This document shows, piece after piece, positions 8,511 to 62,752 of a DNA stretch of 64,000 nt (the stretch's first letter is position 1; every line of letters begins with the position of its first letter). Made by a program: the position numbers and the translations under genes. Source of the DNA: Thermincola ferriacetica (GTDB lineage: Bacteria > Bacillota > Thermincolia > Thermincolales > Thermincolaceae); the NCBI RefSeq assembly GCF_001263415.1, contig NZ_LGTE01000015.1, forward strand, positions 1-64,000, written 5' to 3'. The notes under the pieces are model-generated. The model was not told where the DNA came from. It saw nothing but the letters and a program-made list of their open reading frames with translations, and did not search any database.

Positions 8511-9401
8511 GTGGGTGAAAACATGGCCGAAAACAATAAAAACAGTAAGTTAACCCCGCATACGGGTGTTCTTTATCTTTGCCCAACCCCGCTAGGCAAC
8601 CTGGAAGATATAACCCTACGGGTTTTAAGGCTTTTGAAGGAATGTGATTTAATTGCGGCTGAAGACACGCGGAGGACCATTAAGTTGCTTAACCATTATG
8701 TCATAAAAACTCCATTAACCAGTTACCACGAACATAACGAAAAGGTTAAAGGGTCCAAGTTGATTCAGGAATTATTGGCAGGTAAAAATATTGCATTGGT
8801 AAGTGACGCAGGTATGCCGGGTATTTCAGATCCCGGGCAGGTTATTGTAAAAATGGCTTTGGATAAAGGAATTAAAGTGGTTCCTGTACCGGGGGCTTCT
8901 GCGGGTATTACCGCATTAGTGGCGTCTGGACTTGATACCGGTCGTTATGTATTTGAAGGCTTTTTACCTAAAGAGAAGAAAAAGCGCAGGCAAATCTTAC
9001 AACAACTGGCTGACGAAGAACGCACTATCATTTTGTACGAGGCGCCCCACCGGTTGCAAACGACCCTGGAGGAATTAAACCGGTTTTTGGGCAATAGGAA
9101 AATGGTACTGGCCAGGGAACTGACCAAAGTTCATGAAGAGTTTTTACGCGGCAGTATTTCCGAAATTACAGCCCGGCTTGCCGACAAGGAAATTAAAGGG
9201 GAACTTTGCCTGGTAATTGAAGGAGCTGAACGCAAACAAAAAAAAGATGACCTTCCGGTATGGGAAGGCCGAACACTGATTGAACAGGTTCAAGTTTTAA
9301 TGAAGCAGGGTTTATCTAAAAAAGAGGCAATAAAAGAGGTAGCAAATAAAATGGGTAAACCTAAGCGGGAGGTCTATAATGAAATAATAAAGCATGAATA
9401 G
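8511..9401 (+). CDS. rsmI: 16S rRNA (cytidine(1402)-2'-O)-methyltransferase
   Basis: Methylates the 2'-hydroxyl of C1402 in the decoding centre. The tetrapyrrole-methylase fold is evident from CPTPLGNLEDITLR at the start, AAEDTRRT, SDAGMPGISDPG and VPVPGASA. 296 residues. The GTG at 8511 follows a purine-rich AGGAGCGGAG by seven bases; an ATG at 8523 is the alternative. It sits in the conserved yabA-yabB-rsmI-abrB order. Confidence 0.94.
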   Translation: MGENMAENNKNSKLTPHTGVLYLCPTPLGNLEDITLRVLRLLKECDLIAAEDTRRTIKLLNHYVIKTPLTSYHEHNEKVKGSKLIQELLAGKNIALVSDAGMPGISDPGQVIVKMALDKGIKVVPVPGASAGITALVASGLDTGRYVFEGFLPKEKKKRRQILQQLADEERTIILYEAPHRLQTTLEELNRFLGNRKMVLARELTKVHEEFLRGSISEITARLADKEIKGELCLVIEGAERKQKKDDLPVWEGRTLIEQVQVLMKQGLSKKEAIKEVANKMGKPKREVYNEIIKHE

Positions 9402-9440
9402 CAATAAAGTTGGTAGTGGGCTGAGATATTTTTTTATGCA

Positions 9441-9475
9441 CTAAAAAAGAAAGACACAGTCTTTCTTTTTGAGGT
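9441..9475. terminator. Bidirectional terminator between rsmI and abrB
   Basis: AAAAAGAAAGAC and GTCTTTCTTTTT arms with a two-base loop. A run on one side and T run on the other make it usable for both converging genes. Confidence 0.8.
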
Positions 9476-9483
9476 GTGGCATA

Positions 9484-9738
9484 TTAAAATGTATCTGCTG
9501 CTTTGGCCATGGAAATTACACATTCGCGGCAAACGTTTTTGCCTTTGAAATGCTGCACGTTGTCGGCATTGCCACAGAATATGCAGGCCGGTTCGTATTT
9601 TTTCAGGATAATTTTTTCGCTGTCAACGTAAATTTCTAAAGCATCTTTTTCATCGATGCCTAAAGTCCGCCGGAGTTCAATAGGAATAACAACCCGACCG
9701 AGCTCATCTACTTTTCGTACAATTCCTGTGGATTTCAC
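9484..9738 (-). CDS. abrB: AbrB-family transition-state regulator
   Basis: Swapped-hairpin DNA-binding protein that represses stationary-phase genes in Bacilli. The first 50 residues are nearly identical to B. subtilis AbrB (the STGIVRKVDELGRVVIP segment). The C-terminus differs: it carries CIFCG and CREC, a likely zinc-binding pair, where B. subtilis AbrB has none. I start at GTG 9738, six bases after AAGGGGAG, which gives 84 residues; the frame is open to 9768. A consensus-like promoter and a Spo0A box lie just upstream. Confidence 0.92.
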   Translation of the reverse strand: MKSTGIVRKVDELGRVVIPIELRRTLGIDEKDALEIYVDSEKIILKKYEPACIFCGNADNVQHFKGKNVCRECVISMAKAADTF

Positions 9739-9760
9739 TATCTTCTCCCCTTCCGCATAA

Positions 9761-9769
9761 TTCGACAAA
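9761..9769 (-). promoter_or_regulatory. Spo0A box (0A box) in the abrB leader
   Basis: TTTGTCGAA on the minus strand, matching the 0A-box core TGNCGAA. It sits about 8-16 bases after the predicted start of transcription. In B. subtilis, Spo0A~P represses abrB from boxes just downstream of the start, so placement and identity agree. Confidence 0.75.
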
Positions 9770-9783
9770 TTTCTTATAACTAA

Positions 9784-9812
9784 ATGATACCAACCATGCC
9801 ATTAAAAGTCAA
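9784..9812 (-). promoter_or_regulatory. sigmaA promoter of abrB
   Basis: On the minus strand TTGACT (9812-9807), a 17-bp spacer, and TATCAT (9789-9784). The expected transcription start is near 9777, about 40 bases before the GTG. Confidence 0.75.
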
Positions 9813-9967
9813 CCCTTTTTTATTTCAGTATAACTGTAAACAGGTTCCAATAAAATGAATTCTGTGCTAATTGTTAAAATCCTGCAAGTTTGGCAAAAAA
9901 ATTAGTCTCATAACTGTAAAAACGAAAAATTATTACAGGGAATATTGGTTGGTTTTTCAGGGTAAAC

Positions 9968-9996
9968 TTGACAAAAGGTACATTGTTGATTATTAT
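9968..9996 (+). promoter_or_regulatory. sigmaA promoter of metG
   Basis: TTGACA (9968-9973), 17-bp spacer, TATTAT (9991-9996), about 50 bases before the T-box leader structure. Confidence 0.8.
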
Positions 9997-10049
9997 CTAT
10001 TTATAATTATTTTTCGGCAATCACCAGGTAGAAAAACCTAATATGGACT

Positions 10050-10322
10050 AAAGGTTATGACGGGAAAGAGTAGATTTGGTAGTATTTGCCCAGAGAGTGG
10101 GGGGAAGGTGCGAGCCCTGCCAAAGAACCCATTTTGAACATGGTCCCAGAACCGAAGGCTGAAATTTATTTAAAAGTAGGCCGTTACGGGTAAGCTCCGT
10201 TATGCAGCTTCGGGTATGACTGTACCTGGTAGAGGCTTTTACTTTAAGTAAAAGTAAAATTGGGTGGTACCACGAAGGTGTTCCTCTCGTCCCATTATGT
10301 TGGGCGGGAGGTTTTATTTTTG
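10050..10322 (+). promoter_or_regulatory. T-box leader controlling metG
   Basis: Transcription-attenuating leader that senses uncharged tRNA-Met. Stem I runs from about 10050 and contains a likely AUG specifier in the GAACATGGTCCC stretch near 10136. The T-box itself (GGGTGGTACCACG, about 10261-10274) has U as the base that would pair with the discriminator A of tRNA-Met. A terminator (CCTC..CGTCCCA pairing with TGGGCGGGAGG, 10283-10311, then T-rich) precedes the metG start codon by about 30 bases. Confidence 0.93.
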
Positions 10323-10349
10323 AAAATCTTTTGGAGAGGAGTAGAGTTG

Positions 10350-12293
10350 ATGAAAAAGACCTTTTATATCACAACGCCGATCTATTATCCCAGTGATAAC
10401 TTGCATATTGGCCATGCCTATACCACGGTGGCTGCCGATACTATTGCCCGGTATAAACGGATGACGGGTTATGACGTGCGCTTTCTTACCGGAAGTGACG
10501 AGCATGGCCAAAAAATTGAGCGTACCGCAAAAGCCCGCGGAGTTGAGCCGATTGATTATGTGGACAGAATTGTGGCCGGGTTTAAAAACCTCTGGCACCA
10601 CTTGGATGTTCATTATGATGATTTTATCAGGACAACAGAACCGCGGCACAAGGAAGTGGTACAGAAAATATTTACCCGCCTTTATGAACAGGGAGATATT
10701 TACAAATCAGAGTACGAGGGTTTATACTGCACTCCCTGTGAAACATTTTGGACGGAGCGGCAGGCTGAGGAAGGAAACTGCCCTGATTGTGGGCGCCCGG
10801 TAGAAAGGGTCAGGGAGGAAAGTTATTTCTTCAGAATGTCCAAATATGCTGACCGACTTCTCCGGTATATTGAAGAAAACCCTGATTTTATTCAGCCTGT
10901 TTCGCGGCGCAACGAAATGGTTAACTTTATCAAACAGGGGCTGGAAGACCTTTGTGTATCAAGGACTACTTTTGACTGGGGCATTAAGGTTCCCTTCGAC
11001 CCTAAACATGTGGTTTATGTTTGGGTTGATGCTCTCACTAACTATATTTCCGCCCTTGGATACGGCACCGAAAACGACGAGCTTTACAAAAAGTACTGGC
11101 CTGCCGATGTCCACTTGGTAGGAAAGGATATTGTACGTTTTCATACGATTATATGGCCGATATTATTGATGGCTATCGGCGAGCCTTTGCCGAAAAAGGT
11201 TATGGGCCATGGCTGGCTACTCCTGGAAGGCGGCAAAATGTCCAAGTCAAAGGGGAATGTTATCGACCCTCTTGTTCTCATAGACAAATATGGGGTTGAC
11301 GCTATCCGGTATTATTTGCTGAGAGAACTTCCTTTTGGTTCGGACGGGTACTATGCCGAAGAAGCTTTAATACAAAGGATAAATTCCGACTTGGCCAATG
11401 ACCTGGGGAACTTGATTTCCAGGACCATTGCCATGGTGGAGAAGTATTTTAGCGGTATGGTGCAGGCGCCCACGGCAAAAGAAGAAATAGACGAAGATTT
11501 ACGGCAATTGGCCATGGTTACTGTAGAAGATTACCGTAACCAAATGGAAAAATTAGAATTAAGCAATGCTCTGGCCAGTATATGGAAATTAATTGGCCGT
11601 GCCAACAAGTATATTGATGAAACGGCTCCCTGGATTCTGGCCAAGGATGAGGCGAAGCGGCCCAGATTGGGTACGGTTTTATATAACCTGTTGGAAGTAA
11701 TCCGGATAGTCACTGTCCTCGTATCCCCTTTTATGACCAGGCTTCCGGACAAGGTTTGGGTTCAATGTGGGCTTAGCGGAAAAGAGGAATGTACCACGTG
11801 GGAATCTGTCCAGAATTGGGGGCGGTTCCCTTCCAATATTAATGTGAAGCGGGGGGAAGCCCTGTTCCCCAGAATTGAGGTAAAAAAGGAGCGGGAAGCT
11901 GTGGAGGAAAAGGATAACACTGCTATACAGGCTGCAACCAAGGAGGAGCCTGCCGGGGAAAAACAGTATATTACCATTGAAGAGTTTGCCAGAATTGATT
12001 TGCGTCTGGCGGAAATAGTTAAGGCAGAAAAAGTGGAAAAGGCTGACAAGTTAATTAAGCTGGAGGTGGCTTTGGGCGAGGAGCGCCGTACTATAGTTGC
12101 CGGTATAGCCCAACATTACAGCCCCGATGAACTGATAGGCAAAAAGATAGTGGTGGTGGCAAATCTCAAGCCTGCCAAATTGAGAGGAATTTTGTCCGAA
12201 GGTATGCTGCTGGCGGCATCCCATGACGGGAACCTTGGTGTGCTTACCATTGACCCGGGAAAAGAAGTGCCCAGTGGCGCGAAGGTTAAATAA
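10350..12293 (+). CDS. metG: Methionyl-tRNA synthetase
   Basis: Charges tRNA-Met. Class I signature HIGH in DNLHIGHAYT, a zinc-binding loop with CTPCE and CPDCG, and KMSKS in GGKMSKSKGN. A C-terminal OB-fold tRNA-binding (EMAP-like) domain occupies about residues 545-647, joined by a charged linker. 647 residues from ATG 10350, with GGAGAGGAG upstream. Expression is governed by the T-box in front of it. Confidence 0.97.
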   Translation: MKKTFYITTPIYYPSDNLHIGHAYTTVAADTIARYKRMTGYDVRFLTGSDEHGQKIERTAKARGVEPIDYVDRIVAGFKNLWHHLDVHYDDFIRTTEPRHKEVVQKIFTRLYEQGDIYKSEYEGLYCTPCETFWTERQAEEGNCPDCGRPVERVREESYFFRMSKYADRLLRYIEENPDFIQPVSRRNEMVNFIKQGLEDLCVSRTTFDWGIKVPFDPKHVVYVWVDALTNYISALGYGTENDELYKKYWPADVHLVGKDIVRFHTIIWPILLMAIGEPLPKKVMGHGWLLLEGGKMSKSKGNVIDPLVLIDKYGVDAIRYYLLRELPFGSDGYYAEEALIQRINSDLANDLGNLISRTIAMVEKYFSGMVQAPTAKEEIDEDLRQLAMVTVEDYRNQMEKLELSNALASIWKLIGRANKYIDETAPWILAKDEAKRPRLGTVLYNLLEVIRIVTVLVSPFMTRLPDKVWVQCGLSGKEECTTWESVQNWGRFPSNINVKRGEALFPRIEVKKEREAVEEKDNTAIQAATKEEPAGEKQYITIEEFARIDLRLAEIVKAEKVEKADKLIKLEVALGEERRTIVAGIAQHYSPDELIGKKIVVVANLKPAKLRGILSEGMLLAASHDGNLGVLTIDPGKEVPSGAKVK

Positions 12294-51263: not shown

Positions 51264-51920
51264 ATGAATTTGCCTAAAAAACGTATCCTGGTAATGACCG
51301 CTGTTCAGGCAGAACGGGATGCGGTATTGCGTGGGCTGAAGGGCGATCAAAGGTTTGATGTCTGCTTGGCGGGTGTTGGCCCGGCAGCGGCGGCAGCCAA
51401 TACGGCAAGGATCTTGGCAACTGCTGAATACGACCTGGTAGTGAGCGCCGGTATTGGTGGAGGGTTCCCTGGCAGGGCTGAGATTGGTTCCCTTGTGGTG
51501 GCAAATGAAATTGTTGCCGCGGATTTAGGGGCGGAAACCCCGAAAGGTTTCATGAGTTTGGATGAATTGGGCTTCGGATGTACCCGTGTTCAGGCGGATC
51601 TCTGCCTGGTGAACCGGTTGACTGAAGCGTTATTTGCGGCCAATCTACCGGTCAGCGCTGCCCCTATATTGACTGTATCTACAGTGACGGGTACGGCTGA
51701 GAGTGCGGTAGAAATGGCGGCACGGGTACCGGGGGCCGCTGCTGAGGCAATGGAGGGGTATGGTGTGGCTGTTGCGGGACAGGCGCTTGGTGTGCCGGTG
51801 CTGGAAATCCGCTCTGTCTCAAACCTGGTTGGCTTAAGGGAACGGAGCACATGGCGTATAGATGAGGCATTGGCCGCTCTCGAAGCGGCAAGTTCAGTAT
51901 TATTGGAGGTTTTACTATGA
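51264..51920 (+). CDS. mqnB: Futalosine hydrolase
   Basis: Nucleosidase that removes hypoxanthine from futalosine in the alternative menaquinone pathway. 218 residues of the nucleoside-phosphorylase fold. LVMTAVQAERDAVLRGL, VSAGIGGGFPG, and AEAMEGYGVAVAGQALGVP with the substrate-binding Glu are visible; SNLVGLRERSTWRIDEAL is typical of MqnB. AAAGGAG lies nine bases before the ATG. Overlaps mqnD by four bases. Confidence 0.92.
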   Translation: MNLPKKRILVMTAVQAERDAVLRGLKGDQRFDVCLAGVGPAAAAANTARILATAEYDLVVSAGIGGGFPGRAEIGSLVVANEIVAADLGAETPKGFMSLDELGFGCTRVQADLCLVNRLTEALFAANLPVSAAPILTVSTVTGTAESAVEMAARVPGAAAEAMEGYGVAVAGQALGVPVLEIRSVSNLVGLRERSTWRIDEALAALEAASSVLLEVLL

Positions 51921-52756
51921 GAATTGCTTTTTCTCCTTGTCCTAACGATACTTTTATATTCCATGCCTGGGTACATGGACTGATTCCGGGTGCTCCGAAG
52001 CTGGAGGTTACTTATGCCGATATTGACATCACCAACAGTTTGGCGGCCGGTGGTAACGGGCCGGAGGTGATTAAGATTTCTTATGCAGCTCTCCCATGGG
52101 TATTATCTGATTACGCGCTGCTCCCATGTGGAGGTGCACTGGGCAGAGGTTGTGGGCCGCTGGTATTAACGTCGCTAAAAGCAGGTAATACCGAGGATCC
52201 GGCGGTTTTGGCCGGTAAACGGATTGCGGTACCCAGTGAAAGATCAACGGCCTACCTGTTGTTCCGCCTGTGGGCAGCTCAAAAAGTACCAGGGGGGGTA
52301 GGCGAGATAGTGGTTATGCCTTTTCATGAGATTATGCCGGCGGTGCGTGACGGCGCCGTTGATGCCGGGCTGGTGATTCACGAGGCACGCTTCACTTACC
52401 CTTCTTACGGGCTGGACCTTTTGGCTGATCTGGGCAGTTGGTGGGAAGCTGATACCAATCTGCCGATTCCTTTGGGAGCGATCGTCGCCCGTCGGAACCT
52501 GGATTTAACGGCTGTCGCTGACTGGATTCGGGCCTCGCTCAGATACGCGTGGGCACACCCGGAGGCTTCACGGGAGTATGTAATGTGCCATGCTCAGGAG
52601 CTGTCGCCTGAAGTTGCCCAGGCACATATTAATCTTTACGTAAACGAGTTCAGTGAAAATTTAGGCGAGACAGGGTATCAAGCGGTAACTACCTTACTCA
52701 GCCGGGCCGCACAGGCAGGGCTGGTGCCCAGGGTGGACTTGGCGGCCTTATCATAA
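51917..52756 (+). CDS. mqnD: 1,4-Dihydroxy-6-naphthoate synthase
   Basis: Converts cyclic dehypoxanthinyl futalosine into 1,4-dihydroxy-6-naphthoate. Periplasmic-binding-protein fold. AFSPCPNDTFIFHAWVHGLI at the start and VPSERSTAYLLFRLW are family blocks. 279 residues. ATGA overlap with mqnB. mqnA, mqnC and mqnE are not in the window. The pathway makes menaquinone for anaerobic respiration, which fits the cytochromes nearby. Confidence 0.94.
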   Translation: MRIAFSPCPNDTFIFHAWVHGLIPGAPKLEVTYADIDITNSLAAGGNGPEVIKISYAALPWVLSDYALLPCGGALGRGCGPLVLTSLKAGNTEDPAVLAGKRIAVPSERSTAYLLFRLWAAQKVPGGVGEIVVMPFHEIMPAVRDGAVDAGLVIHEARFTYPSYGLDLLADLGSWWEADTNLPIPLGAIVARRNLDLTAVADWIRASLRYAWAHPEASREYVMCHAQELSPEVAQAHINLYVNEFSENLGETGYQAVTTLLSRAAQAGLVPRVDLAALS

Positions 52757-52824: not shown

Positions 52825-52828
52825 TATA

Positions 52829-52855
52829 AGCCTCCACTCGAGAGCGGAGGCTTTA
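52829..52855. terminator. Hairpin between mqnD and the cmu-like operon
   Basis: AAGCCTCC and GGAGGCTT arms with an eight-base loop. The T-rich side is short (TTTATTG), so it is a fair terminator for mqnD and a weak one for the converging operon. Confidence 0.65.
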
Positions 52856-52906: not shown

Positions 52907-53203
52907 TTACTGGTTCTCGGCATTCCCTAAAGCTTCATCAATTTGCTTTTGAAATGGATTAGGTTTACTTTGTTTAATGGCGGCACACTGACAATGATGA
53001 GTATGTCCACAAGCTTTAACTTTTCTTTCAATAGGCGGCTTATCTTTTGTTGACCTGATGAGGTTAAACATGGCTACCGGCATAGCTCTCATGACTCCTC
53101 CACATTGGACACATATCAGTTCCAACCCTTTTTTGGCTTCATAATCAACCATCACCGGTCTTTTTGTCCCACATTCACTGCAAAGAAAGTCATATATAGG
53201 CAT
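52907..53203 (-). CDS. FmdB-type zinc-ribbon protein
   Basis: 98 residues. N-terminal FmdB zinc ribbon: MPIYDFLCSECG, then CVQCGG. A second His/Cys cluster (ACGHTHHCQC) follows in the C-terminal half. FmdB proteins are small regulators or metal-binding partners of unknown exact role, found beside formamidase, methyltransferase and chloromethane genes. ATG 53203 with AAGGAGG seven bases upstream. Last gene of the operon, 25 bases after the CmuA-like gene. Confidence 0.85.
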   Translation of the reverse strand: MPIYDFLCSECGTKRPVMVDYEAKKGLELICVQCGGVMRAMPVAMFNLIRSTKDKPPIERKVKACGHTHHCQCAAIKQSKPNPFQKQIDEALGNAENQ

Positions 53204-53228
53204 AATTAACCTCCTTGAAAAGAAATAT

Positions 53229-55064
53229 TTAGGCTGTTGCCTTAATATGTTCTTTAACCAAGGAAACTGCAGCGTTAGCATCAGAACCATATTTTGCGCC
53301 GATTTGGGAAGCAATCTGTTCATTCATTGCTGCGCCACCGGTCATGACCAAATACTTGTCGGCCAAGCCTTTTGCTTTAAGCAATTCTACTGTTTTTTCT
53401 GCGTAAATAACCGATGAGTTGGTCATGACGGATATACCAATTGCCACCGCATTATTAGCTTCTGCTGCTTCAACAAATTGTTCAGGTTTAACATTCTTGC
53501 CAAGATCAATAACATTAAAGCCGTTGGCTTTGAGCATTAGGACAACAAGATTTTTTCCGATGTCCTGAGTGTTCCCACGAATCAGACCCACTACCACCGT
53601 TTTTTTATTCCCGTCCCCTGCTCCTGATGCTTCCAGCAGCGGAACAAGAATAGCCATAGCCTTTTCCATAGTCTTGGCAGATTTGATCATATCGGTGATG
53701 AAACGTTCGTTACGCTCATACAAGTCGCCGACCATTTTCATACCAAGGGATAAACCGTCAAATATAATCTGCTGCGGGGTTAACCCGAGTTCCAGACCTT
53801 TTTTGGTCCACTCAACGACTTTATCACCGTCGTATTCCAAAATCGCATCCGCCAGATTTGAATAAACCTCTTCTTCCGGAGTTTTATTTGCCTTCTTTTG
53901 AATGCCCATTCTGACCATTTGATCGTTATCCGTTGATATTTTGCGCATACCCGGGTGGTTGGGGTGGCCCGCCAAATAAACGTTGCTCAGGTCACCAAGG
54001 GCCTCGATGTCTATCGGGTACTTGATCGATGCACAGGTATCAATCAACGCGCGCATGTTTTCCTCCGGAACAGTCCAGTCAATGTCACAACCGGGCATGC
54101 AGACAAATCCGCCGTTATACCCAACTTCAACAGCCAATTTCTTGACTTCCCTGGCAACATCCTCGGGGGTGCCATGGACTAATGTTGAGTAGGGGCTGAC
54201 CGTACCCATCAGTGAAATTTTGTCTCCGATAGCTCGCTTGGCATGGTCTGCTCCAGGATACATATCGCCGTTAAAGTTAAAGGTGCCGCTATTGGCAATG
54301 TCGGACCAGATGGGTTGGGTAAAGGTACATGTATGAGTGAACCCGATACCGCCAATTTCCTTAATATAAGCGAATAACCTCTGCTGGTAGGGCAAGCCAA
54401 ACTCTCTATACATTTCCGGCGGTAAAATGTCACTGGAGCAGAATGGGTCAAGAATATTGCAGACATCAACACCAGCTTCAAACATCATTCGGCAGACATT
54501 TTTAACCACGTCAAGGGATAATTCTATAACCTCTTTAGCGAAATCCGGATCTTCAGCCAAATAAGTGAAAAAATTGTCGGTACCGGTAACTAACTGGGCG
54601 GTAGTAATCGGACCGCCAACGGGGGTAGCCAGCGCGTGGGTATCTTTCCAGCCTTCCCTGATTAAGGTTCTTATTTCTTCTTGAATTGCTCTCAAGCGGC
54701 CTTTTTCCGGATTAAAGCCATTCTTTAGGTAGTTATCTTTTAGACGGTAAAAAGCTTCTTTTGTAGGTGCGGGATGTTCAACTAGTGAGGGTTGTGCATA
54801 AGGCAGGTATTCTAATACAGCACCCAGATTCTCTACCGGGGTAAACAAGTCGGTCCCGGCAACCACCACGTCTCCGCCGAATTTTTGATGGGCTTTGATT
54901 TTGGCTTTGGCCATGGCCTCACCGTCGAGCAGGACCTGATCAACTCTAACGCCCCCCTCGCGAATGCCCCGTGTCATCAACAACGGGTTTACGGGTAACT
55001 GGTCCGGCAGCTCTTGCATAGTAACTGCCGCAAAAACTCGTTCTCGGCTGGTCATCTTGGACAT
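53229..55064 (-). CDS. CmuA-like methyltransferase/corrinoid-protein fusion
   Basis: 611 residues. The N-terminal UroD/MtaA-type methyltransferase domain (about 1-350) has the zinc motif H244-T-C246 plus a further Cys at 322 or 326. A helical corrinoid cap (about 385-475) and a cobalamin-binding Rossmann domain (about 485-608) follow. The cobalamin motif, normally DxHxxG, reads N498-T-Q500-D-I-G503, so the axial His is replaced by Gln; SVMTNSS and GGAA complete the signature. This two-domain fusion is the architecture of CmuA, which moves the methyl group of chloromethane to its own corrinoid. Other methyl donors, such as methoxylated aromatics or methylamines, remain possible. ATG 55064 after AAGGGAGTG. 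Confidence 0.88.
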   Translation of the reverse strand: MSKMTSRERVFAAVTMQELPDQLPVNPLLMTRGIREGGVRVDQVLLDGEAMAKAKIKAHQKFGGDVVVAGTDLFTPVENLGAVLEYLPYAQPSLVEHPAPTKEAFYRLKDNYLKNGFNPEKGRLRAIQEEIRTLIREGWKDTHALATPVGGPITTAQLVTGTDNFFTYLAEDPDFAKEVIELSLDVVKNVCRMMFEAGVDVCNILDPFCSSDILPPEMYREFGLPYQQRLFAYIKEIGGIGFTHTCTFTQPIWSDIANSGTFNFNGDMYPGADHAKRAIGDKISLMGTVSPYSTLVHGTPEDVAREVKKLAVEVGYNGGFVCMPGCDIDWTVPEENMRALIDTCASIKYPIDIEALGDLSNVYLAGHPNHPGMRKISTDNDQMVRMGIQKKANKTPEEEVYSNLADAILEYDGDKVVEWTKKGLELGLTPQQIIFDGLSLGMKMVGDLYERNERFITDMIKSAKTMEKAMAILVPLLEASGAGDGNKKTVVVGLIRGNTQDIGKNLVVLMLKANGFNVIDLGKNVKPEQFVEAAEANNAVAIGISVMTNSSVIYAEKTVELLKAKGLADKYLVMTGGAAMNEQIASQIGAKYGSDANAAVSLVKEHIKATA

Positions 55065-55205
55065 ATTGATTCACTCCCTTAATTTGTTAGTTTAAGCGTA
55101 GATATGGTCCTTTTCCAATGAATTCGTTATCCCGTTTCTCACCACCTTATTGCCAGAATAATAAATACTTTTGTTGTACATTGACGGTAAAAAAGTCACC
55201 CTATG

Positions 55206-56357
55206 TTATACGGCAGGTAGTTCTTTTGATAAGGTTTTTTCTATTGCCTCTTCGATGATGCTCCGTACCGGCCCAATGTTACGGATTTTTTCAAAATCAT
55301 CGTCGGACAAATTTCGGATAAATGCAGCTCCATATATAGTTGCAAGTACTTCTTCTGTAGATAACAAGTTATCCAAGGGCGCGGCAATAACCGGTGAACT
55401 TTTGGCCAATTCAGTGATTAATCGGGCGATTCCGGCCCTATCCCGATTCGCTACGGACCTACCCAAAGCACAAAGGTCGGTTGACCCATGCAGTACAACA
55501 TGAGGTGGAAGCTCTTGCCTTATTTCCTGAACACTCATCCCCTTAGCTTTAGTATCCAGATTAAATATCTTGATACCGAGCTCAACTACATCCTTCAGAA
55601 TTGGTCGAATGGCTCCACAACTGTGAAAGCAAATTGCGGCAGAGGTTAACTGTCTGAGTCTGGTCAGCGATGAATGCATAAAGGGTCGAATATATTTGCG
55701 AAAATCCATCGGAGAAAAAAACATGCCATCCTGGTGGCCCAAATCATCGGCATAAATGATTATATCTGGTTCATAAGGAAGTGAGCTCAACATATATTTA
55801 TAGGCATCTACTATAGTTTCTGCGGACCATTCGAGTAGCGCTGTAGCAATTTGCCAATTATCTGCAATATCTTCCATAAACTGCCAGGTACTGCGCAGCA
55901 TGAAGCATAGATTTAGGAGACCGGGGCAAGGCGCATCTGCGATTATAAGGTAGTTATTTGCAATATTAGATTCAATGGGTTGTATCTTCTGATGCCATTG
56001 GATTTTGGGATAACGCACAATATCGCTGAGCGCCGCTGTTTCTAGAGGGTGGTTGACAGGAAAAAAAGCACTTCCATCCTGTATCCATTTAACGCCATAG
56101 GCATCAATAAAGCTATCATCTGTTATTGCGGGGAAGTCAAATAACAAACCACTACGGACAAAATCAGATCCTAGCCGGATACAATCCAGCGGCTCCAAAG
56201 GTACTGTTCCGTATACAGGATGAGCTGCTTTGTCTTTTGCCTTATGGGGAAGTACATTGTTCCGGATACCAGTGAGAGACGTAGTTCCAATATCAATCAG
56301 TGGCAAGCCTGATTGTTTTCCGGAAATAATGGATGCTAATCTTGACCGAAGATTCAT
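55206..56357 (-). CDS. UroD-type methyltransferase (CmuC position)
   Basis: 383 residues of the uroporphyrinogen decarboxylase superfamily, methyltransferase branch. H245-S-C247-G in ICFHSCGAIRP is the zinc/thiol motif, with another Cys at 296. It lacks the N-terminal Arg-rich loop of true HemE, so haem synthesis is unlikely. There is no corrinoid domain. In chloromethane degraders a UroD-like protein, CmuC, of similar size lies between cmuB and cmuA and is needed for growth, though its reaction is unsettled. 13 bases after the MtrH-like gene, 141 bases before the CmuA-like gene. Confidence 0.82.
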   Translation of the reverse strand: MNLRSRLASIISGKQSGLPLIDIGTTSLTGIRNNVLPHKAKDKAAHPVYGTVPLEPLDCIRLGSDFVRSGLLFDFPAITDDSFIDAYGVKWIQDGSAFFPVNHPLETAALSDIVRYPKIQWHQKIQPIESNIANNYLIIADAPCPGLLNLCFMLRSTWQFMEDIADNWQIATALLEWSAETIVDAYKYMLSSLPYEPDIIIYADDLGHQDGMFFSPMDFRKYIRPFMHSSLTRLRQLTSAAICFHSCGAIRPILKDVVELGIKIFNLDTKAKGMSVQEIRQELPPHVVLHGSTDLCALGRSVANRDRAGIARLITELAKSSPVIAAPLDNLLSTEEVLATIYGAAFIRNLSDDDFEKIRNIGPVRSIIEEAIEKTLSKELPAV

Positions 56358-56370
56358 CGTTTTATTTCAC

Positions 56371-57273
56371 CTACAGTTTGAACATATTCCACAAAGCGTG
56401 TCCTTCAGGCAGTTTATGACCATCCAATTCTTGAGCCGCAAAGCCATAAAACACTTCGGCAGTCGCAGAAACATGGGCTGCCACTGCTGCTTTTTCAATG
56501 ATGCCATAGTGCAAGTAATCTGCACCTGCTGCACGACAAGCAACAAGTGCTGTTGCCAAAGATAGATTTACCCATTCCCGGCCTAGTTGACTGACACTGG
56601 TCCATTGTGGAAAACAGTTAGAGAAGGCACAACCGGCAGGATAGCCGAAACGTTCACGAACAGCCTGAATTTGCCGAATATTCAGACCAATTGAGGGTGG
56701 ATCCATCGTGCCTAAGTCCACAATAGGGGCTTCTACTCCAATCTCCTTTAACATCGGCTGATAATAGTTCTCGATCATCTCACAACTTCCCTCAGGTGTT
56801 GGGTTGCTTACATCACTGGCAAGTATCATGACAGCGGCGGGGCGTTGCCGGCAGAGTAATTCCAACTCTTCGTCTTCTGTATCCTCATTCAGCGAAGCAT
56901 AAATTACCCGATTTAGAATTCCCAGTTTAGCGGCAGCCTCAAGGCCAGCCATGCGGGCCTCGGCTTCAGAAGCATTTATAAATAAAGGAAGGGTTGTACG
57001 CACACTAACAAATTCTAAAAAGCGTTCCATGGCTTCGGGTGAAGCGGCAATGATGTCAAATGCCATTTGCACACCGTATCTTTTACTGAGTTTATTTACA
57101 CGGTCCACCAATTCTGTCGCGCGATTTTCGTCAAATTCGCCGGCAAATGGATCAGAAACAAGAGAATGTTTGTCATAAAAAATGCTCCCTACCGCTAAGC
57201 CGGTATTCGATCCCATTGGCCCACCTATTATAGTGTCACCTATCTTCAGTACGTGAAAATTTGCCAACTTCAA
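56371..57273 (-). CDS. MtrH/CmuB-like methylcorrinoid:pterin methyltransferase
   Basis: 300-residue TIM-barrel protein of the MtrH family (GPMGSNTGLAVGSIFYDKHS, FINASEAEARMAGLEAA, VDLGTMDPPSIGLN, GCAFSNCFPQW). MtrH and CmuB pass a methyl group between a corrinoid and a tetrahydropterin. With no methanogenesis genes in sight, tetrahydrofolate is the likely acceptor. It is also related to MtvA of acetogenic O-demethylases. The minus-strand ATG has AAGGAGG upstream. Confidence 0.88.
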   Translation of the reverse strand: MKLANFHVLKIGDTIIGGPMGSNTGLAVGSIFYDKHSLVSDPFAGEFDENRATELVDRVNKLSKRYGVQMAFDIIAASPEAMERFLEFVSVRTTLPLFINASEAEARMAGLEAAAKLGILNRVIYASLNEDTEDEELELLCRQRPAAVMILASDVSNPTPEGSCEMIENYYQPMLKEIGVEAPIVDLGTMDPPSIGLNIRQIQAVRERFGYPAGCAFSNCFPQWTSVSQLGREWVNLSLATALVACRAAGADYLHYGIIEKAAVAAHVSATAEVFYGFAAQELDGHKLPEGHALWNMFKL

Positions 57274-57413
57274 TTCCTCCTTCTTTTAGATAACATTTTT
57301 TTAAGTAAAAAATCATGGAGAAAGTCTGCGCAGAAACCATTTCTCTTGATATCAGCAATCAAGCAACCAAGTTTTTCTACCGAAAACTTCCTCCTATTGG
57401 CAGAACCTAAAGT

Positions 57414-57935
57414 TTAAGGATGATTGGAAGACTTGATTTTATCAGATTGCTTAGTATCTTTTACCAACGCCAAATACTGTACAACCAAAGCCGACAAAAT
57501 TAGGATTCCTAATCCAAGAAAGACAGGTTTAAGAACAAATGCATAGTTTTGTTTGGAAATAACTGCCACAAAAGCTGTTGCACCACCAGGAGGATGTAAT
57601 GTGTTAGTAATATTCATTAAAACCATTGCCAAGGCAACGCTAATAGAGACACTCCACCAATTCGATCCCAGAAGCTGGTATACGGTGACACCAGCTAAAG
57701 CAGATAACAGTTGCCCACCCACAATACATTTAACTTTTGTCATCGAAACCGGAGACGCAAATAATACTATGGCAGAACTGGCTAGAGACGGGAAAAGAAG
57801 TGCTGCTTCATATTGATAGCCCAAATAAGCTATTGGAGAAATCCCGAGAAACGTTCCTAACGTGGCGACCATTAAATAACCTGGTTTTGCCCTTCTGATA
57901 ATGTCACAGACCCGTTTAATAATCTGATTTATCAA
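57414..57935 (-). CDS. HPP-family membrane protein
   Basis: About 173 residues with four to five membrane helices. HPPGGATA in TLHPPGGATAFVAV is the HPP-family signature. Some plant and cyanobacterial HPP proteins move nitrite across membranes; the bacterial ones are mostly uncharacterised. Start TTG 57935, nine bases after AAGGAG; TTG 57944 would touch that site. First gene after the strong minus-strand promoter and 140 bases before the MtrH-like gene, with no terminator between. If the operon releases chloride, an anion channel here would make sense, but that is inference. Confidence 0.82.
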   Translation of the reverse strand: MINQIIKRVCDIIRRAKPGYLMVATLGTFLGISPIAYLGYQYEAALLFPSLASSAIVLFASPVSMTKVKCIVGGQLLSALAGVTVYQLLGSNWWSVSISVALAMVLMNITNTLHPPGGATAFVAVISKQNYAFVLKPVFLGLGILILSALVVQYLALVKDTKQSDKIKSSNHP

Positions 57936-58031: not shown

Positions 58032-58060
58032 ATTATAAAACGCACTATATTGTATGTCAA
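58032..58060 (-). promoter_or_regulatory. Perfect-consensus sigmaA promoter of the cmu-like operon
   Basis: On the minus strand TTGACA (58060-58055), exactly 17 bp, TATAAT (58037-58032). Predicted start near 58025, about 90 bases before the HPP start codon. All twelve consensus bases match, so it should be very strong unless repressed. Confidence 0.9.
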
Positions 58061-58107
58061 TATATTTTATTGTATAATATTAATTTTTATTGTATAACAT
58101 TGTATAA
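58049..58107. repeat. Phased ATTGTAT operator-like repeats
   Basis: ATTGTAT begins at 58049, 58069, 58089 and 58099, so the steps are 20, 20 and 10 bp, whole helical turns. The last three copies extend to ATTGTATAA. The first copy lies in the spacer and at the -35 edge of the minus-strand promoter; the rest extend upstream of it toward the regulator's own promoter. The most likely ligand is the divergently encoded MEDS-domain protein. Confidence 0.8.
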
Positions 58108-58134: not shown

Positions 58135-58163
58135 TTGATATGTTCAATACGCTGTGATATCAT
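58135..58163 (+). promoter_or_regulatory. Promoter of the MEDS-domain regulator
   Basis: TTGATA (58135-58140), 17-bp spacer, TATCAT (58158-58163), 39 bases before the ATG. Confidence 0.7.
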
Positions 58164-58202: not shown

Positions 58203-58955
58203 ATGAATGAGGAACTGCTAACAGTAGACGAAGTAGCAGACATTTTAAGAACAACCCCCAATACAATCTATAGATGGTTGCGAGCCGGAAAACTGCCCGG
58301 TGTTAAAATCGGGAAAGAATGGCGCATAAGACGAGAGACCCTGGAACTCAAGCTTAGCGAGACCAATACCGTCATTATCAAAGACCAGAGTTTGCTGGAT
58401 AACATTCATCCTCAACATGATCATGTGATGGCAGTTACCCGCAACACAAATAATCTGTATAATCTTGAGGCAGAGTTTTTTAAAAAGGGGTTGTCGAGAG
58501 GATCTAGATTGTTTAAGGGATGCTGGTGGCAGCATCCTGATGACGTTAGACAGGAACTATCCTTAAGAGGATTGCCTATTGAAGAGCTTGAAGGAAAAAA
58601 TTCTCTTACTATTGTCGACTTAACCCACCAGTACAATCGTTCGGGAAAAAACGGACCGATTCAAATATGGTCAGATGAGGCAAGAAAAACTCTTGAATTG
58701 GGCTACAAAACCATGTGGGGTTCAGGTTCTCCTCACCTGTTGTCATGCGGGGGACACTTTCCAAACTTGGTTGACTTTGAAAGTTCATTGGAGGATGTCA
58801 TTAGAAAACTTCCGGTTGTAGGAATCTGTCCTTATATTTTTGAAACTATAAAAGACGATTGTTTTAGCCAATTGATTAATTTGATGAACCATCATAGAAG
58901 TGTTATTTTTTACAATGACGGACTCGCAACTTATTTAAAAAATGAACCCGCTTAA
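58203..58955 (+). CDS. Helix-turn-helix regulator with MEDS (DcmR-type) sensory domain
   Basis: 250 residues. An excisionase/MerR-like HTH at about 4-52 (LTVDEVADILRTTPNTIYRWLRAGKLPGVKIGKEWRI split by short loops) is followed by a MEDS domain at about 70-240. MEDS (methanogen/methylotroph DcmR sensory) domains occur in DcmR, the dichloromethane-responsive repressor of methylotrophs, and in methanogen regulators of methyl-compound genes. Divergent from the cmu-like operon, with repeats between. GGAGAAGGCGG precedes the ATG. It probably senses the methylated or halogenated substrate (inference). Confidence 0.85.
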   Translation: MNEELLTVDEVADILRTTPNTIYRWLRAGKLPGVKIGKEWRIRRETLELKLSETNTVIIKDQSLLDNIHPQHDHVMAVTRNTNNLYNLEAEFFKKGLSRGSRLFKGCWWQHPDDVRQELSLRGLPIEELEGKNSLTIVDLTHQYNRSGKNGPIQIWSDEARKTLELGYKTMWGSGSPHLLSCGGHFPNLVDFESSLEDVIRKLPVVGICPYIFETIKDDCFSQLINLMNHHRSVIFYNDGLATYLKNEPA

Positions 58956-58983: not shown

Positions 58984-59018
58984 GGCAGAAACATCAATAT
59001 AATGTTTCTGCCCTTATT
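58984..59018 (+). terminator. Terminator after the MEDS regulator
   Basis: GCAGAAACAT (58985-58994) and ATGTTTCTGC (59002-59011), ten perfect pairs, then CCTTATTTTT. Confidence 0.88.
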
Positions 59019-59145: not shown

Positions 59146-60264
59146 ATGACAAACAAAGGATTGCGGTATCTGCGCTGGGGACTGCTGGCAGCCATACTGG
59201 TATATATTACGGTTGCTGCTTTCCTCCACCAGCAGAGTGGACCGGAAAAGGCTGCTTCCATCCATGCCCTGTGTTCTTATGGCGGTCTTGAAACCCTCTA
59301 CAGCCTTATGTTTTCAGGCAGTTTTGTCAAGAAAATATTTTCGGGCACCATGGTGCTGCTGGTATTGAGCTTAATCATCACTCTTCTTTTCCGCAGGAGC
59401 TTCTGCGGTTTGCTCTGCCCTTTTGGCGCCTTACAGGAGTTTTTTGCTAAGTTGGGGCAGAAAGTACTGGGGAAAAGATACACTATGCCCGACAGAATTG
59501 ATATACCACTGCGGTATCTGAAATACCTTGTCCTGCTCATTACGCTCCTGGGCGCATGGATTACCGGTACGCTTTGGATGTCACCCTATGACCCCTATGC
59601 CGCATACGCGCACCTTTCGGCAGGTTTTACCGAGTTAGCTGAAGAATATTTTATCGGTCTTATATTGCTGGTTGTAACTGTGATAGGTTCCTTTGTTTAT
59701 GATAGATTCTTCTGCAAATACCTTTGTCCTGCCGGAGCCTTCTACGGAATATTGGGGAAATTAAGCCCCAATAAAGTGGAAAGGAACGAAGCCAAATGTA
59801 TTCACTGCCGATTGTGCAGCAAGAGCTGTCCCGTGAATATTGATGTGGAAAAGGAAACCACTGTTACCACCGCTGAATGCATCAACTGCCAGGAATGCGT
59901 CAATGTGTGCCCCCAAAATGGCGCCATCGCTATAAAGCAGGGCAAAAAGGAAATACCCGCCCTTGCAGTCATTGGTCTGGTAATGGGAATTTTCTTCGGA
60001 GGTATCCTGGTCGCACAGGCAACTGGCTTCTACAAGACTTTACCTGCTCCTGTAGCAGAAGGGTCAATTGTCAACGTGGAGGAAATCCGGGGGTCTATGA
60101 CCCTTGCTGATGTGGCCAAAGGGACGGGCCTGAGTCAAGATGTTTTATACAAGAAGCTGGGGATTCCGGAAAATGTTCCACCCGAAACCCGGTTGAAGGA
60201 TGTATCTCAGTATGTTGAAGGTTTTTCCCCGGAAACAGCAAGGGAGTTACTGAACAGCAAATGA
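59146..60264 (+). CDS. NapH-type membrane polyferredoxin
   Basis: 372 residues. About five membrane helices (residues 10-30, 65-85, 125-145, 165-185, 265-290). Two CxxxCP motifs face one side (FCGLLCPFG and FCKYLCPAG), followed by two [4Fe-4S] motifs (CIHCRLCSKSCP and CINCQECVNVCP). The C-terminal 75 residues (DVAKGTGLSQDVLYKKLGIP and on) are an extra domain I do not recognise. NapH-type proteins carry electrons between quinols and periplasmic or cytoplasmic partners. AAGGAGG precedes the ATG. Convergent with the fusion gene next door. Confidence 0.88.
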   Translation: MTNKGLRYLRWGLLAAILVYITVAAFLHQQSGPEKAASIHALCSYGGLETLYSLMFSGSFVKKIFSGTMVLLVLSLIITLLFRRSFCGLLCPFGALQEFFAKLGQKVLGKRYTMPDRIDIPLRYLKYLVLLITLLGAWITGTLWMSPYDPYAAYAHLSAGFTELAEEYFIGLILLVVTVIGSFVYDRFFCKYLCPAGAFYGILGKLSPNKVERNEAKCIHCRLCSKSCPVNIDVEKETTVTTAECINCQECVNVCPQNGAIAIKQGKKEIPALAVIGLVMGIFFGGILVAQATGFYKTLPAPVAEGSIVNVEEIRGSMTLADVAKGTGLSQDVLYKKLGIPENVPPETRLKDVSQYVEGFSPETARELLNSK

Positions 60265-60349
60265 TGCAAAGTACTGCAATGGGCCGGTAGCCCCATGAAG
60301 GGAACTTCTGTGGCCCCGCTTAACTGTACACTGTTAGCCATGGAACATC

Positions 60350-62752
60350 TCAAGTCTCCTTGCTGGTGCGTACCAATACCATGGTAATTGTAAATCCGGT
60401 TAAAGTTATTCCGATAGCGGCGGAAATAAACCGAAGCAGGGTCAAAGCCGGAACTGTAAACATGTGGCCATAGCTCCCGGGCGGCTCCAGGATTACACCA
60501 AGATTGACGGCCGTGATACCTGGGAGGTAGGAAAGTTGATAAATAATATGGCCGGCCAATACCATAGGAACCAGTGCAAAAACCAGTTTGATGCGGCGGG
60601 AAGCCGTTTTATTGCGGAATGGACGGGCTATCAACCGGATTGCAACGGCTGATATCAGTGCAGTCAGCCAGTATGATAAAGTAAACGCTACCTGCCACGT
60701 TGAAAAAGGCAAAAACTTTTGTAACTGTTGAAAATAAAGCATAGGTACCAGGATGGCCAGGGCTGTTCCGATGAAAATTACATAACCCTGATTAATCCTG
60801 GTCAGGTGCCATACTTCCTTGCCGGGAAAACGCAAATTGAGTTTGGCTGAACCGTTGGGGCAGTTGTGGATGCAGCGTAAGCACAGTTTACAGTCCAGGT
60901 TATTATCGATAAAAGGCGCATACCGAAGTACCGGACAGCCTGGTGAGTTATCTTTACCACGGTAACATTCATAAGTGGAACATTTGCTTAAACATATATT
61001 TGGATCGGCTCTGACTTCAAGCATAGCGCCTATTGATGCCATACCGACAAATCCGCCGAGCGGGCACAGGTGACGGCACCATGTGTGCCGGACAAAAATG
61101 ATGCCGATGATACCGGCGAGCGCCATAATGCAAATAAACAGCAGTCCTGTATAAACGGGGCTAGAGCGAATGTTGGCCACTGTTTCTACCCAAACTATTA
61201 GTAGGAACAAAAAAGTTACCAGCGCGTAATCATACTTTTTCAGAAAATTGGGGATAGTGCGGTTGAAATGAACGTATTTTTGAACCAGTTCAAAAAGGCC
61301 GGAGAAGGGGCAAATACAACACCATATCCGGCCGAATAATGGCGAGAATATGGCCAAAGCCGGCCACCACAGTCCCCAGATGATACTGGACAGAATTCCG
61401 GTCAACTTTGTTTTGGGACCCCAAATTAAACAGAAGGTGATAAAGCTGAAAAATAGGAAGGAAACTTTTTGAATTTGTACCGGAAATTTTTTATTTATTA
61501 TGAGTTTTTTAACCCATGCCCATGTAAGAAGGTCAATACTTTCATCCAGCTTTTTGGGGGTTTGGCCAAAGAAAAGGTGTTCAAGGCCGATAATTTCGTC
61601 ATCCGCCAAAAGGAAGGCTCTTTCTATGACCTGAATCAGTTCTGTAACGTTCCCCTGACGGAAGTCATGGGAAAGGAGAAGCTTGTTGGCCTGTGGGTCC
61701 AATACGGGTGTTTTCCGGTTGTTTTGTTGCGCCAGTTTATTTAGAATACCCTGGGCAATAACGGGGATATCCCGTTTTCGCTCCCGCAAAGGAGTAATCT
61801 CATATCTGAGATCAAAACATTTTGTTAACGGTGTGGCCAAATCTGTCGGTATCTGGTCAGAGCCTACATTGATGCTGCCAATAATACGGCAGGCTGTTTC
61901 CGTGCGGCGGATGGCCCTGGCTAACTGCACCTGATTCCTGGCGGAAATCATGTTTATGTCTCTGATAAACAAGGTACCGCCTTTGACAATATCTAACAGG
62001 CTGTCTATGGTGATTTTAGGGCATTGGTTACCTTCTTTTGCCTTATGGTAAAGTATTTCCCCCCAATACCGGTCAAAATGAACCCCGTCAATAACGATAA
62101 AAGGAGCTGATTCACCAAACTGTTGTTTATGTAAATACCAGGCGAACATCTGTCGGCCTGTTCCCCGTTCGCCTAAAACCAACAAATTACCACCGTTCCT
62201 GGAAAATTCAGCCAGTTTACTTTCGACTTCTCTGGTAGTCTTTCTGCTTCCCCATAAGCCGTAAAATTTATATTGTAATTGATTTGCCAGGAGACCGGCG
62301 CGTAAAAGTTCCTTGTAGCGGGTCTCCCACATGCTCATATTGGCCTGCATCAGGTGATGAGAAAGTTTTTCCAGGAACTTTTCATAAAGTTTTGGCCAGC
62401 GTGTTAGCATACGGGCAAAGTTATCCCGATTCATTACCAGGACTTTGCAGTTTTCTGTGCACCGTATGGTAACGGGAGGAGGATTTCCGGTAAAAAGGGA
62501 TATCTCGCCGAAAATGTCGCCAGGGCCGAAAGAATTAACTTTCAATGGATCCTGCTGATTATTAATCAACACCTCTGCCTTGCCCTCGGCGAGGACATAA
62601 AATTTAAAGTTTTTCTCGCCCTGGGGTACGATATCCGAGTACTTGTCAAATTTTGCCCATTCAAAGTCCCTGGCAAGCTCTGCCAAATCCTGTGGACTTA
62701 AATGTGCAAATAATTCTACTTTTGATAAAAAGTAAACTTTGCCTGCAGTCAT
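60350..62752 (-). CDS. CRP-like sensor/degenerate sigma54-activator ATPase/membrane 4Fe-4S fusion
   Basis: 800 residues. Cyclic-nucleotide-binding fold (about 5-120; GPGDIFGEISLFTG). AAA+ domain like sigma54 activators (about 165-400): Walker A G194-ERGTGR, arginine-finger-like PLRERKRDIP at 321, but Walker B reads LFIRDI instead of LFLDEI and the GAFTGA loop is missing, and no Fis-type HTH follows. Then about six membrane helices (430-575 and 655-790) with WCCICPFSG and WCRHLCPLGG, and iron-sulphur motifs CLSKCSTYEC plus CPVL and CKLCLRCIHNCP. It looks like a membrane redox protein under allosteric control, not a DNA-bound activator. Confidence 0.88.
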   Translation of the reverse strand: MTAGKVYFLSKVELFAHLSPQDLAELARDFEWAKFDKYSDIVPQGEKNFKFYVLAEGKAEVLINNQQDPLKVNSFGPGDIFGEISLFTGNPPPVTIRCTENCKVLVMNRDNFARMLTRWPKLYEKFLEKLSHHLMQANMSMWETRYKELLRAGLLANQLQYKFYGLWGSRKTTREVESKLAEFSRNGGNLLVLGERGTGRQMFAWYLHKQQFGESAPFIVIDGVHFDRYWGEILYHKAKEGNQCPKITIDSLLDIVKGGTLFIRDINMISARNQVQLARAIRRTETACRIIGSINVGSDQIPTDLATPLTKCFDLRYEITPLRERKRDIPVIAQGILNKLAQQNNRKTPVLDPQANKLLLSHDFRQGNVTELIQVIERAFLLADDEIIGLEHLFFGQTPKKLDESIDLLTWAWVKKLIINKKFPVQIQKVSFLFFSFITFCLIWGPKTKLTGILSSIIWGLWWPALAIFSPLFGRIWCCICPFSGLFELVQKYVHFNRTIPNFLKKYDYALVTFLFLLIVWVETVANIRSSPVYTGLLFICIMALAGIIGIIFVRHTWCRHLCPLGGFVGMASIGAMLEVRADPNICLSKCSTYECYRGKDNSPGCPVLRYAPFIDNNLDCKLCLRCIHNCPNGSAKLNLRFPGKEVWHLTRINQGYVIFIGTALAILVPMLYFQQLQKFLPFSTWQVAFTLSYWLTALISAVAIRLIARPFRNKTASRRIKLVFALVPMVLAGHIIYQLSYLPGITAVNLGVILEPPGSYGHMFTVPALTLLRFISAAIGITLTGFTITMVLVRTSKET

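Follow-up and report, generated by a model that had tools for sequence, protein, structure and literature searches.

Organization of the locus

This report concerns a gene cluster of Thermincola ferriacetica in the first 64,000 nucleotides of contig NZ_LGTE01000015.1 (assembly GCF_001263415.1); this whole stretch is called the window, and its GC content is about 0.45. The genome that was searched comprises 3.18 Mb on 78 contigs. Within positions 57935 to 52907 the minus strand encodes, in the order of transcription, an HPP membrane protein, CmuB, CmuC, CmuA, and FmdB, an arrangement that corresponds to a chloromethane utilization (cmu) operon with an additional first gene. The features of the operon are:

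57414..57935, minus strand: TM_HPP membrane protein, first gene of the operon (PF04982, 130 bits)
56371..57273, minus strand: cmuB, MtrH-type methylcorrinoid:tetrahydrofolate (H4folate) methyltransferase (PF02007 MtrH, 157 bits; NF002142, 436 bits; 74% identical to pJM105 CmuB)
55206..56357, minus strand: cmuC, UroD-like protein (PF01208 URO-D, 40 bits; 49% identical to pJM105 CmuC)
53229..55064, minus strand: cmuA, halomethane:corrinoid methyltransferase (TIGR01463, 432 bits; motifs and tree)
52907..53203, minus strand: fmdB, small FmdB-type zinc ribbon protein (45% identical to pJM105 FmdB; ribosome-binding site AAGGAGG)
52828..52853, minus strand: terminator-like hairpin AAGCCTCC...GGAGGCTT after fmdB (read from the sequence, not in the list of the terminator scan)

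The hairpin behind fmdB is the predicted end of the operon. The HPP gene starts with a TTG codon at 57935, cmuB probably with TTG at 57267, and fmdB with an internal ATG at 53203, which is preceded by the AAGGAGG sequence. The intergenic gaps are 13 bp (cmuB-cmuC), 141 bp (cmuC-cmuA), and about 25 bp (cmuA-fmdB). The zinc ribbon match of FmdB has a score of 28 bits, under the Pfam cut-off of 34.4. A first-pass annotation of the window had placed five minus-strand genes in this order and at this position, which was confirmed by the positions of the open reading frames and the family matches. However, it had drawn the boundary of the unit too narrowly: a divergently transcribed gene (58203-58955) and the gap of about 260 bp between it and the HPP gene also belong to it.

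CmuA and the identity of the operon

CmuA is a single chain of 611 amino acids, in which a UroD/MtaA domain (residues 1-350) is followed by a corrinoid domain (residues about 395-611; families URO-D, B12-binding_2, and B12-binding). Over its full length it is 68% identical to CmuA of Methylorubrum extorquens CM4 and 72% identical to CmuA of the cloned operon pJM105, far above everything else in the plasmid collection, and the gene order cmuB-cmuC-cmuA-fmdB is that of pJM105. The motifs RGNTQDIG, H-x-C (HTC in this protein), and MPGC are common to all 25 CmuA sequences compared. In CmuA, NTQDIG replaces DxHxxG, and the cobalt-ligating histidine is absent; all other corrinoid proteins of the host that were recovered by a motif search have kept DxHxxG. 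In a phylogenetic tree that was built without MtvB, OdmB, CdmB, and MecC/E, the CmuA proteins, including the 611-residue protein, form one clade (support 100/99), apart from the UroD-type paralogues of the host and from plasmid-borne UroD relatives; the outgroups are long-branched. The domain order of the fusion and the gene order had already been likened to the aerobic cmu cluster in the first-pass annotation, and synteny, full-length identity, active-site motifs, and the phylogeny suggested there all uphold this assignment.

An O-demethylase for methoxylated aromatics (MtvABC/OdmABC type), composed of a UroD methyltransferase, a corrinoid protein, and an MtrH-like transferase, had been named as the main rival. 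It would draw on the same superfamilies, and the host does contain separate islands with UroD, corrinoid, and RACo genes on other contigs. However, such systems have separate methyltransferase I (MTI) and corrinoid proteins, the latter with DxHxxG, and the window operon has neither: its CmuA is a fusion protein that shares 68-72% identity with CmuA and has a corrinoid motif found only in CmuA, and it branches with CmuA, leaving the host UroD paralogues outside. The exclusion of the MtvB, CdmB, and MecC/E families is based on the fusion, the motif, the identity, and their published placement (PMC13222342). An O-demethylase is thus highly improbable, and the comparison of sequences shows that this strict anaerobe has a genuine cmu operon, HPP-cmuB-cmuC-cmuA-fmdB.

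The finding of cmu genes in an anaerobe, which the first-pass annotation implied to be new, has a precedent. As early as 2014, Nadalig et al. (PMC4197683) described five strictly anaerobic bacteria with cmuBCA genes, i.e., Thermincola potens JR, Thermosediminibacter oceani, Desulfotomaculum alcoholivorax, Desulfurispora thermophila, and Desulfomonile tiedjei, the CmuA proteins of which are 64-69% identical to CmuA of CM4. These clusters resemble the window in the operon and in a neighboring gene that was called excisionase; neither a sensory and regulatory role of this neighbor, with an operator, nor the recurrence of HPP as a partner is discussed there. The operon itself is therefore of little novelty, and the regulator, the operator, and the HPP linkage are what is added here. 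The clusters of CM4 and pJM105 share with the window the CmuA fusion, CmuB, CmuC, FmdB, the order of pJM105, the motifs, and identities of 68-74% for CmuA and CmuB. In contrast to them, the window has no paaE, hutI, metF2, purU, or folD behind the operon and has an HPP gene in front of it, and the divergent regulator and the operator ladder described below are present in the window and absent from the aerobic loci searched.

Anaerobic chloromethane use has also been described for strain JHJ (PMC12798067) and for Acetobacterium dehalogenans, the CdmBCA system of which was reported in 2026 (PMC13222342). Like the predicted Cmu system of the window, Cdm is anaerobic and corrinoid-dependent and transfers the methyl group of chloromethane to H4folate. 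However, it has separate MTI (CdmB) and corrinoid (CdmC) proteins, and within the UroD superfamily CdmB is close to MtoB, on another branch (PMC13222342), whereas CmuA of the window is fused, so that the two systems are set apart by domain architecture.

CmuC of the window retains the HSCG motif, and the third zinc-ligand cysteine of MtaA is absent. Strain CM4 is reported to require CmuC in order to grow on chloromethane. HGW-Firmicutes-14 (L019, positions 8990-11836), which has cmuB-cmuA-fmdB but no cmuC, provides a natural test of this requirement.

The divergent MEDS regulator

The gene upstream of the operon encodes a putative transcriptional regulator and is followed by its own terminator-like structure:

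58203..58955, plus strand: regulator with a BldC/excisionase-type winged helix and a MEDS (DcmR sensory) domain (HTH_17, 60 bits; MEDS, 85 bits)
58984..59012, plus strand: terminator-like hairpin after the regulator gene (terminator scan)

The protein has 250 amino acids, with the winged helix first and the MEDS domain second, and no other MEDS gene is present in the genome. A homologue (58-93% identical) adjoins cmuB in all of the 12 distinct anaerobic loci (the window, L016-L021, L031, and L083-L088); it is missing from the 13 aerobic loci examined. In a sample of 399 genomes of the phylum, cmuA is present in eight, each of which has a MEDS gene in the cmu neighborhood; the base rate of MEDS genes above the cut-off is 57 of 399 genomes. 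Plasmid-borne homologues of the regulator were not found. The best matches of the helix-turn-helix (HTH) domain in the PDB are the BldC structures 6AMA and 6AMK (E-values of 1e-4 to 5e-5 for 6AMA). In an AlphaFold model (mean confidence, pLDDT, 83) the MEDS half has a KaiC/RecA-like fold; a Walker A motif is absent.

In five strains, an excisionase gene near cmu has been interpreted as pointing to gene transfer (Nadalig et al., 2014; PMC4197683), and from its position and the organism this is very probably the gene of the MEDS regulator. The 58203 gene would then be a remnant of the mobile element that brought cmu, as might be expected from its excisionase-type HTH (TIGR01764, 49 bits) and from the patchy distribution of cmu in the phylum (8/399). 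However, an excisionase (recombination directionality factor) is a small HTH protein of a mobile element, encoded next to the integrase, and no integrase was found among the ten neighboring proteins searched (51.3-62.8 kb). Furthermore, the protein has a C-terminal MEDS domain with a KaiC-like model, the position of its gene is conserved across many families, and the locus has a private operator array. A mobile element remnant is thus hardly credible. Because the MEDS half is present, the protein is best read as a sensor-regulator, and the name excisionase stems from its HTH; the comparison would correct the published inference that the neighbor of cmu marks a mobile element.

DcmR of Methylorubrum DM4, which represses the dcm cluster and is divergent from dcmA (PMC12750041; PMC9320726), likewise combines HTH and MEDS domains and is encoded divergently to a gene for a halomethane dehalogenase whose promoter contains TTGACA. 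The difference is that the target of DcmR is a glutathione-dependent enzyme, and that its promoter motif is GATC(C/G)ATAGCCT and not ATACAAT (PMC9320726).

Promoters and the predicted ATACAAT operator array

The gap between the HPP gene and the regulator gene contains two promoters and a predicted operator:

58032..58060, minus strand: operon promoter TTGACA-17-TATAAT (12/12 match to the sigma-70 consensus)
58049..58105, minus strand: predicted operator with four exact ATACAAT half-sites (58049, 58069, 58089, 58099) in a 10-bp ladder (from the sequence)
58135..58163, plus strand: predicted regulator promoter TTGATA-17-TATCAT (promoter scan; similar sequence in relatives)

The operon promoter is the only 12/12 sigma-70 promoter that the scan found in the region. 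The half-sites are spaced by 10, 20, and 20 bp, and the last one overlaps the end of the -35 hexamer. Ladders were searched as at least three ATACAAT half-sites, with one mismatch allowed, in a 10-bp phase. They were found in the cmu gap of every anaerobic locus whose gap was covered, and none was found in 608 kb of other loci, a control set with the aerobic cmu loci, further loci with MEDS genes, and methyltransferase islands of the host. When each region was shuffled 500 times with its dinucleotides preserved, none of the shuffles reached the observed ladder in 12 of the 14 regions, and two and three did so in the other two. The count of half-sites in phase, 37 of 51, includes two mis-anchored loci (Desulfocucumis and G277); the shuffle test is independent of that anchor. 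In both Desulfosporosinus loci the regulator gene is reversed, and one ladder lies before the regulator and another before cmuB.

The ladder might be a feature of an AT-rich promoter to which a different factor binds, or it might have arisen by chance and been passed on from a common ancestor; the region is indeed AT-rich, and the loci share ancestry. However, dinucleotide shuffles do not produce it, it is unique in the genome, and Desulfosporosinus has two ladders exactly where the two targets are separated, which makes this explanation rather improbable. The tandem ATACAATNNNATACAAT has a single exact occurrence in the 3.18 Mb, at the predicted operator of the window. A wider regulon was considered and rejected: four sites of the ATACAATNNNATACAAT type with one mismatch are not clearly above the control with the reversed pattern, which gave one.

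A parallel for a predicted operator of this kind exists in Streptomyces, where BldC is described as attaching to direct repeats of 9 bp and assembling into filaments in which the monomers are arranged head to tail, one per turn of the DNA (PMC11963761). The regulator of the window has a winged helix for which BldC is the closest solved structure, and its predicted target is likewise a series of direct repeats phased by one turn of DNA, on which it may assemble head to tail. In contrast to the regulator, BldC consists of the HTH alone and has no sensory domain.

Host metabolism and a proposed mechanism

The first-pass annotation had envisaged that the methyl group enters folate one-carbon metabolism, and the gene content of the host supports this. 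One cluster constitutes a complete carbon monoxide dehydrogenase/acetyl-CoA synthase operon, which encodes CooS, AcsB, both subunits of the corrinoid iron-sulfur protein, AcsE, HdrA-like proteins, and MetF, and formyl-H4folate synthetase is encoded as well. The host has seven RACo-type activators, none of them beside cmu. Many further islands of corrinoid, UroD, and RACo methyltransferase genes are found on contigs 7, 9, 13, 14, 16, and 22 (L090-L096); the matches on contigs 9 and 16 have one in-frame stop each (TGA in RACo, TAA in corrinoid and UroD).

From knowledge of the family, CmuA would act on a methyl halide, primarily chloromethane but also bromo- or iodomethane, and move its methyl group onto the enzyme's own corrinoid, whereby the halide is freed, and CmuB would hand the methyl group on to H4folate. 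Methyl-H4folate could enter the Wood-Ljungdahl pathway and yield acetyl-CoA, or be oxidized to CO2 with transfer of the electrons to a respiratory acceptor. The corrinoid would be reactivated by RACo-type activators encoded elsewhere in the genome. The regulator may oligomerize head to tail on the ATACAAT array and repress the operon, and repression would be lifted when the KaiC-like MEDS domain binds a small ligand related to methyl halides. In this way, regulator and operator array probably switch the cmu operon on when a methyl halide is present.

HPP genes lie beside cmu in nine of the anaerobic loci, at three different positions (before cmuB, behind fmdB, or beyond the regulator), and the family is present in 58 of the 399 genomes of the phylum sample. 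HPP proteins include nitrite transporters. As the halide would be released intracellularly and the family has such members, it is proposed that HPP exports the halide.

Alternatively, the Cmu system might serve another donor, e.g., methyl bromide, methyl iodide, methanethiol, or dimethyl sulfide, or only detoxify methyl halides without growth on chloromethane. According to a description cited in PMC4197683, the corrinoid enzyme of an aerobic chloromethane degrader is a halomethane:bisulfide/halide ion methyltransferase, and no source of chloromethane is known for these anaerobic habitats (PMC4197683). In contrast, the full operon with methyltransferase II, the dedicated regulator, and the complete Wood-Ljungdahl pathway fit a catabolic role, and we regard the alternative as unlikely, albeit the most serious one. 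We thus favor, with a probability of about 0.8, a methyl-halide-responsive cmu operon with a dedicated divergent regulator that feeds methyl-H4folate into the Wood-Ljungdahl pathway.

Several points weigh against this interpretation. The window locus has no counterparts of the PaaE, HutI, and MetF2 encoded in aerobic clusters, and CmuC is absent from one anaerobic locus (L019). The sign of the regulation is a guess, as a repressor is suggested by the strength of the promoter and by analogy to DcmR. The loci with half-sites are related by descent and not fully independent. The role of HPP as a halide (anion) exporter is the weakest step, and three of the 12 anaerobic loci have no HPP neighbor.

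Evolution and significance

The CmuA proteins of aerobes, from Actinomycetota and Alphaproteobacteria, are united in one clade (100/100) nested among the anaerobic ones, so that the anaerobes are paraphyletic. A tree in which the anaerobes were forced together was marginally rejected (approximately unbiased test, p 0.032), with long outgroups. Tentatively, the aerobes may have taken cmu from anaerobes. A more far-reaching scenario is possible, though doubtful: strict anaerobes would have a self-contained methyl-halide-sensing module (BldC-HTH/MEDS repressor, ATACAAT operator, HPP halide exporter, and CmuBCA), and the enzymes of the aerobes would come from that stock, with the sensor left behind.

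Among the halocarbons of the atmosphere, chloromethane ranks first in abundance. It destroys ozone, and little is known about its anaerobic sink. With a culturable anaerobe that has a true cmu operon, a regulator, and an operator, the question of anaerobic chloromethane use raised in 2014 becomes testable. The predicted regulator-operator pair is in addition a candidate chloromethane biosensor.

In the metagenome-assembled genome AfrMine (L016/L034), which is placed in another family, a 7.1-kb contig encodes CmuA and CmuB with 98%, CmuC with 86%, and HPP with 87% identity to the window proteins, a pattern that could be due to recent transfer, a mosaic, or a mis-binned contig. Remnants of a second CmuA C-terminus lie behind the operon or just behind cmuA at three loci (L021, 14281-14608, also with FmdB; L083, 6846-6908; L085, 7068-7154) and hint at tandem duplication followed by decay.

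Neighboring genes and further features of the window

Just past the end of the operon, an MqnB-like phosphorylase-family protein and a menaquinone biosynthesis protein are encoded (51264-52756, plus strand), which suggests a futalosine pathway of menaquinone synthesis. On the other side, the regulator gene is adjoined by a gene for a NapH/MauN-like membrane ferredoxin protein (59146-60264, plus strand). It is followed by a gene for a fusion protein of 800 amino acids with an unusual architecture, in which a cyclic-nucleotide-binding region and a sigma-54-activator AAA region are combined with a NapH/NosR-like polyferredoxin membrane part (60350-62752, minus strand). These NapH-like and NosR-like genes (59146-62752) were rejected as partners of cmu, as no homologue lies near any other cmu locus. 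The Rfam scan found no riboswitch near cmu; its matches in the window lie elsewhere and are a T-box leader (10048-10297) and a 5S rRNA (233-349), both on the plus strand.

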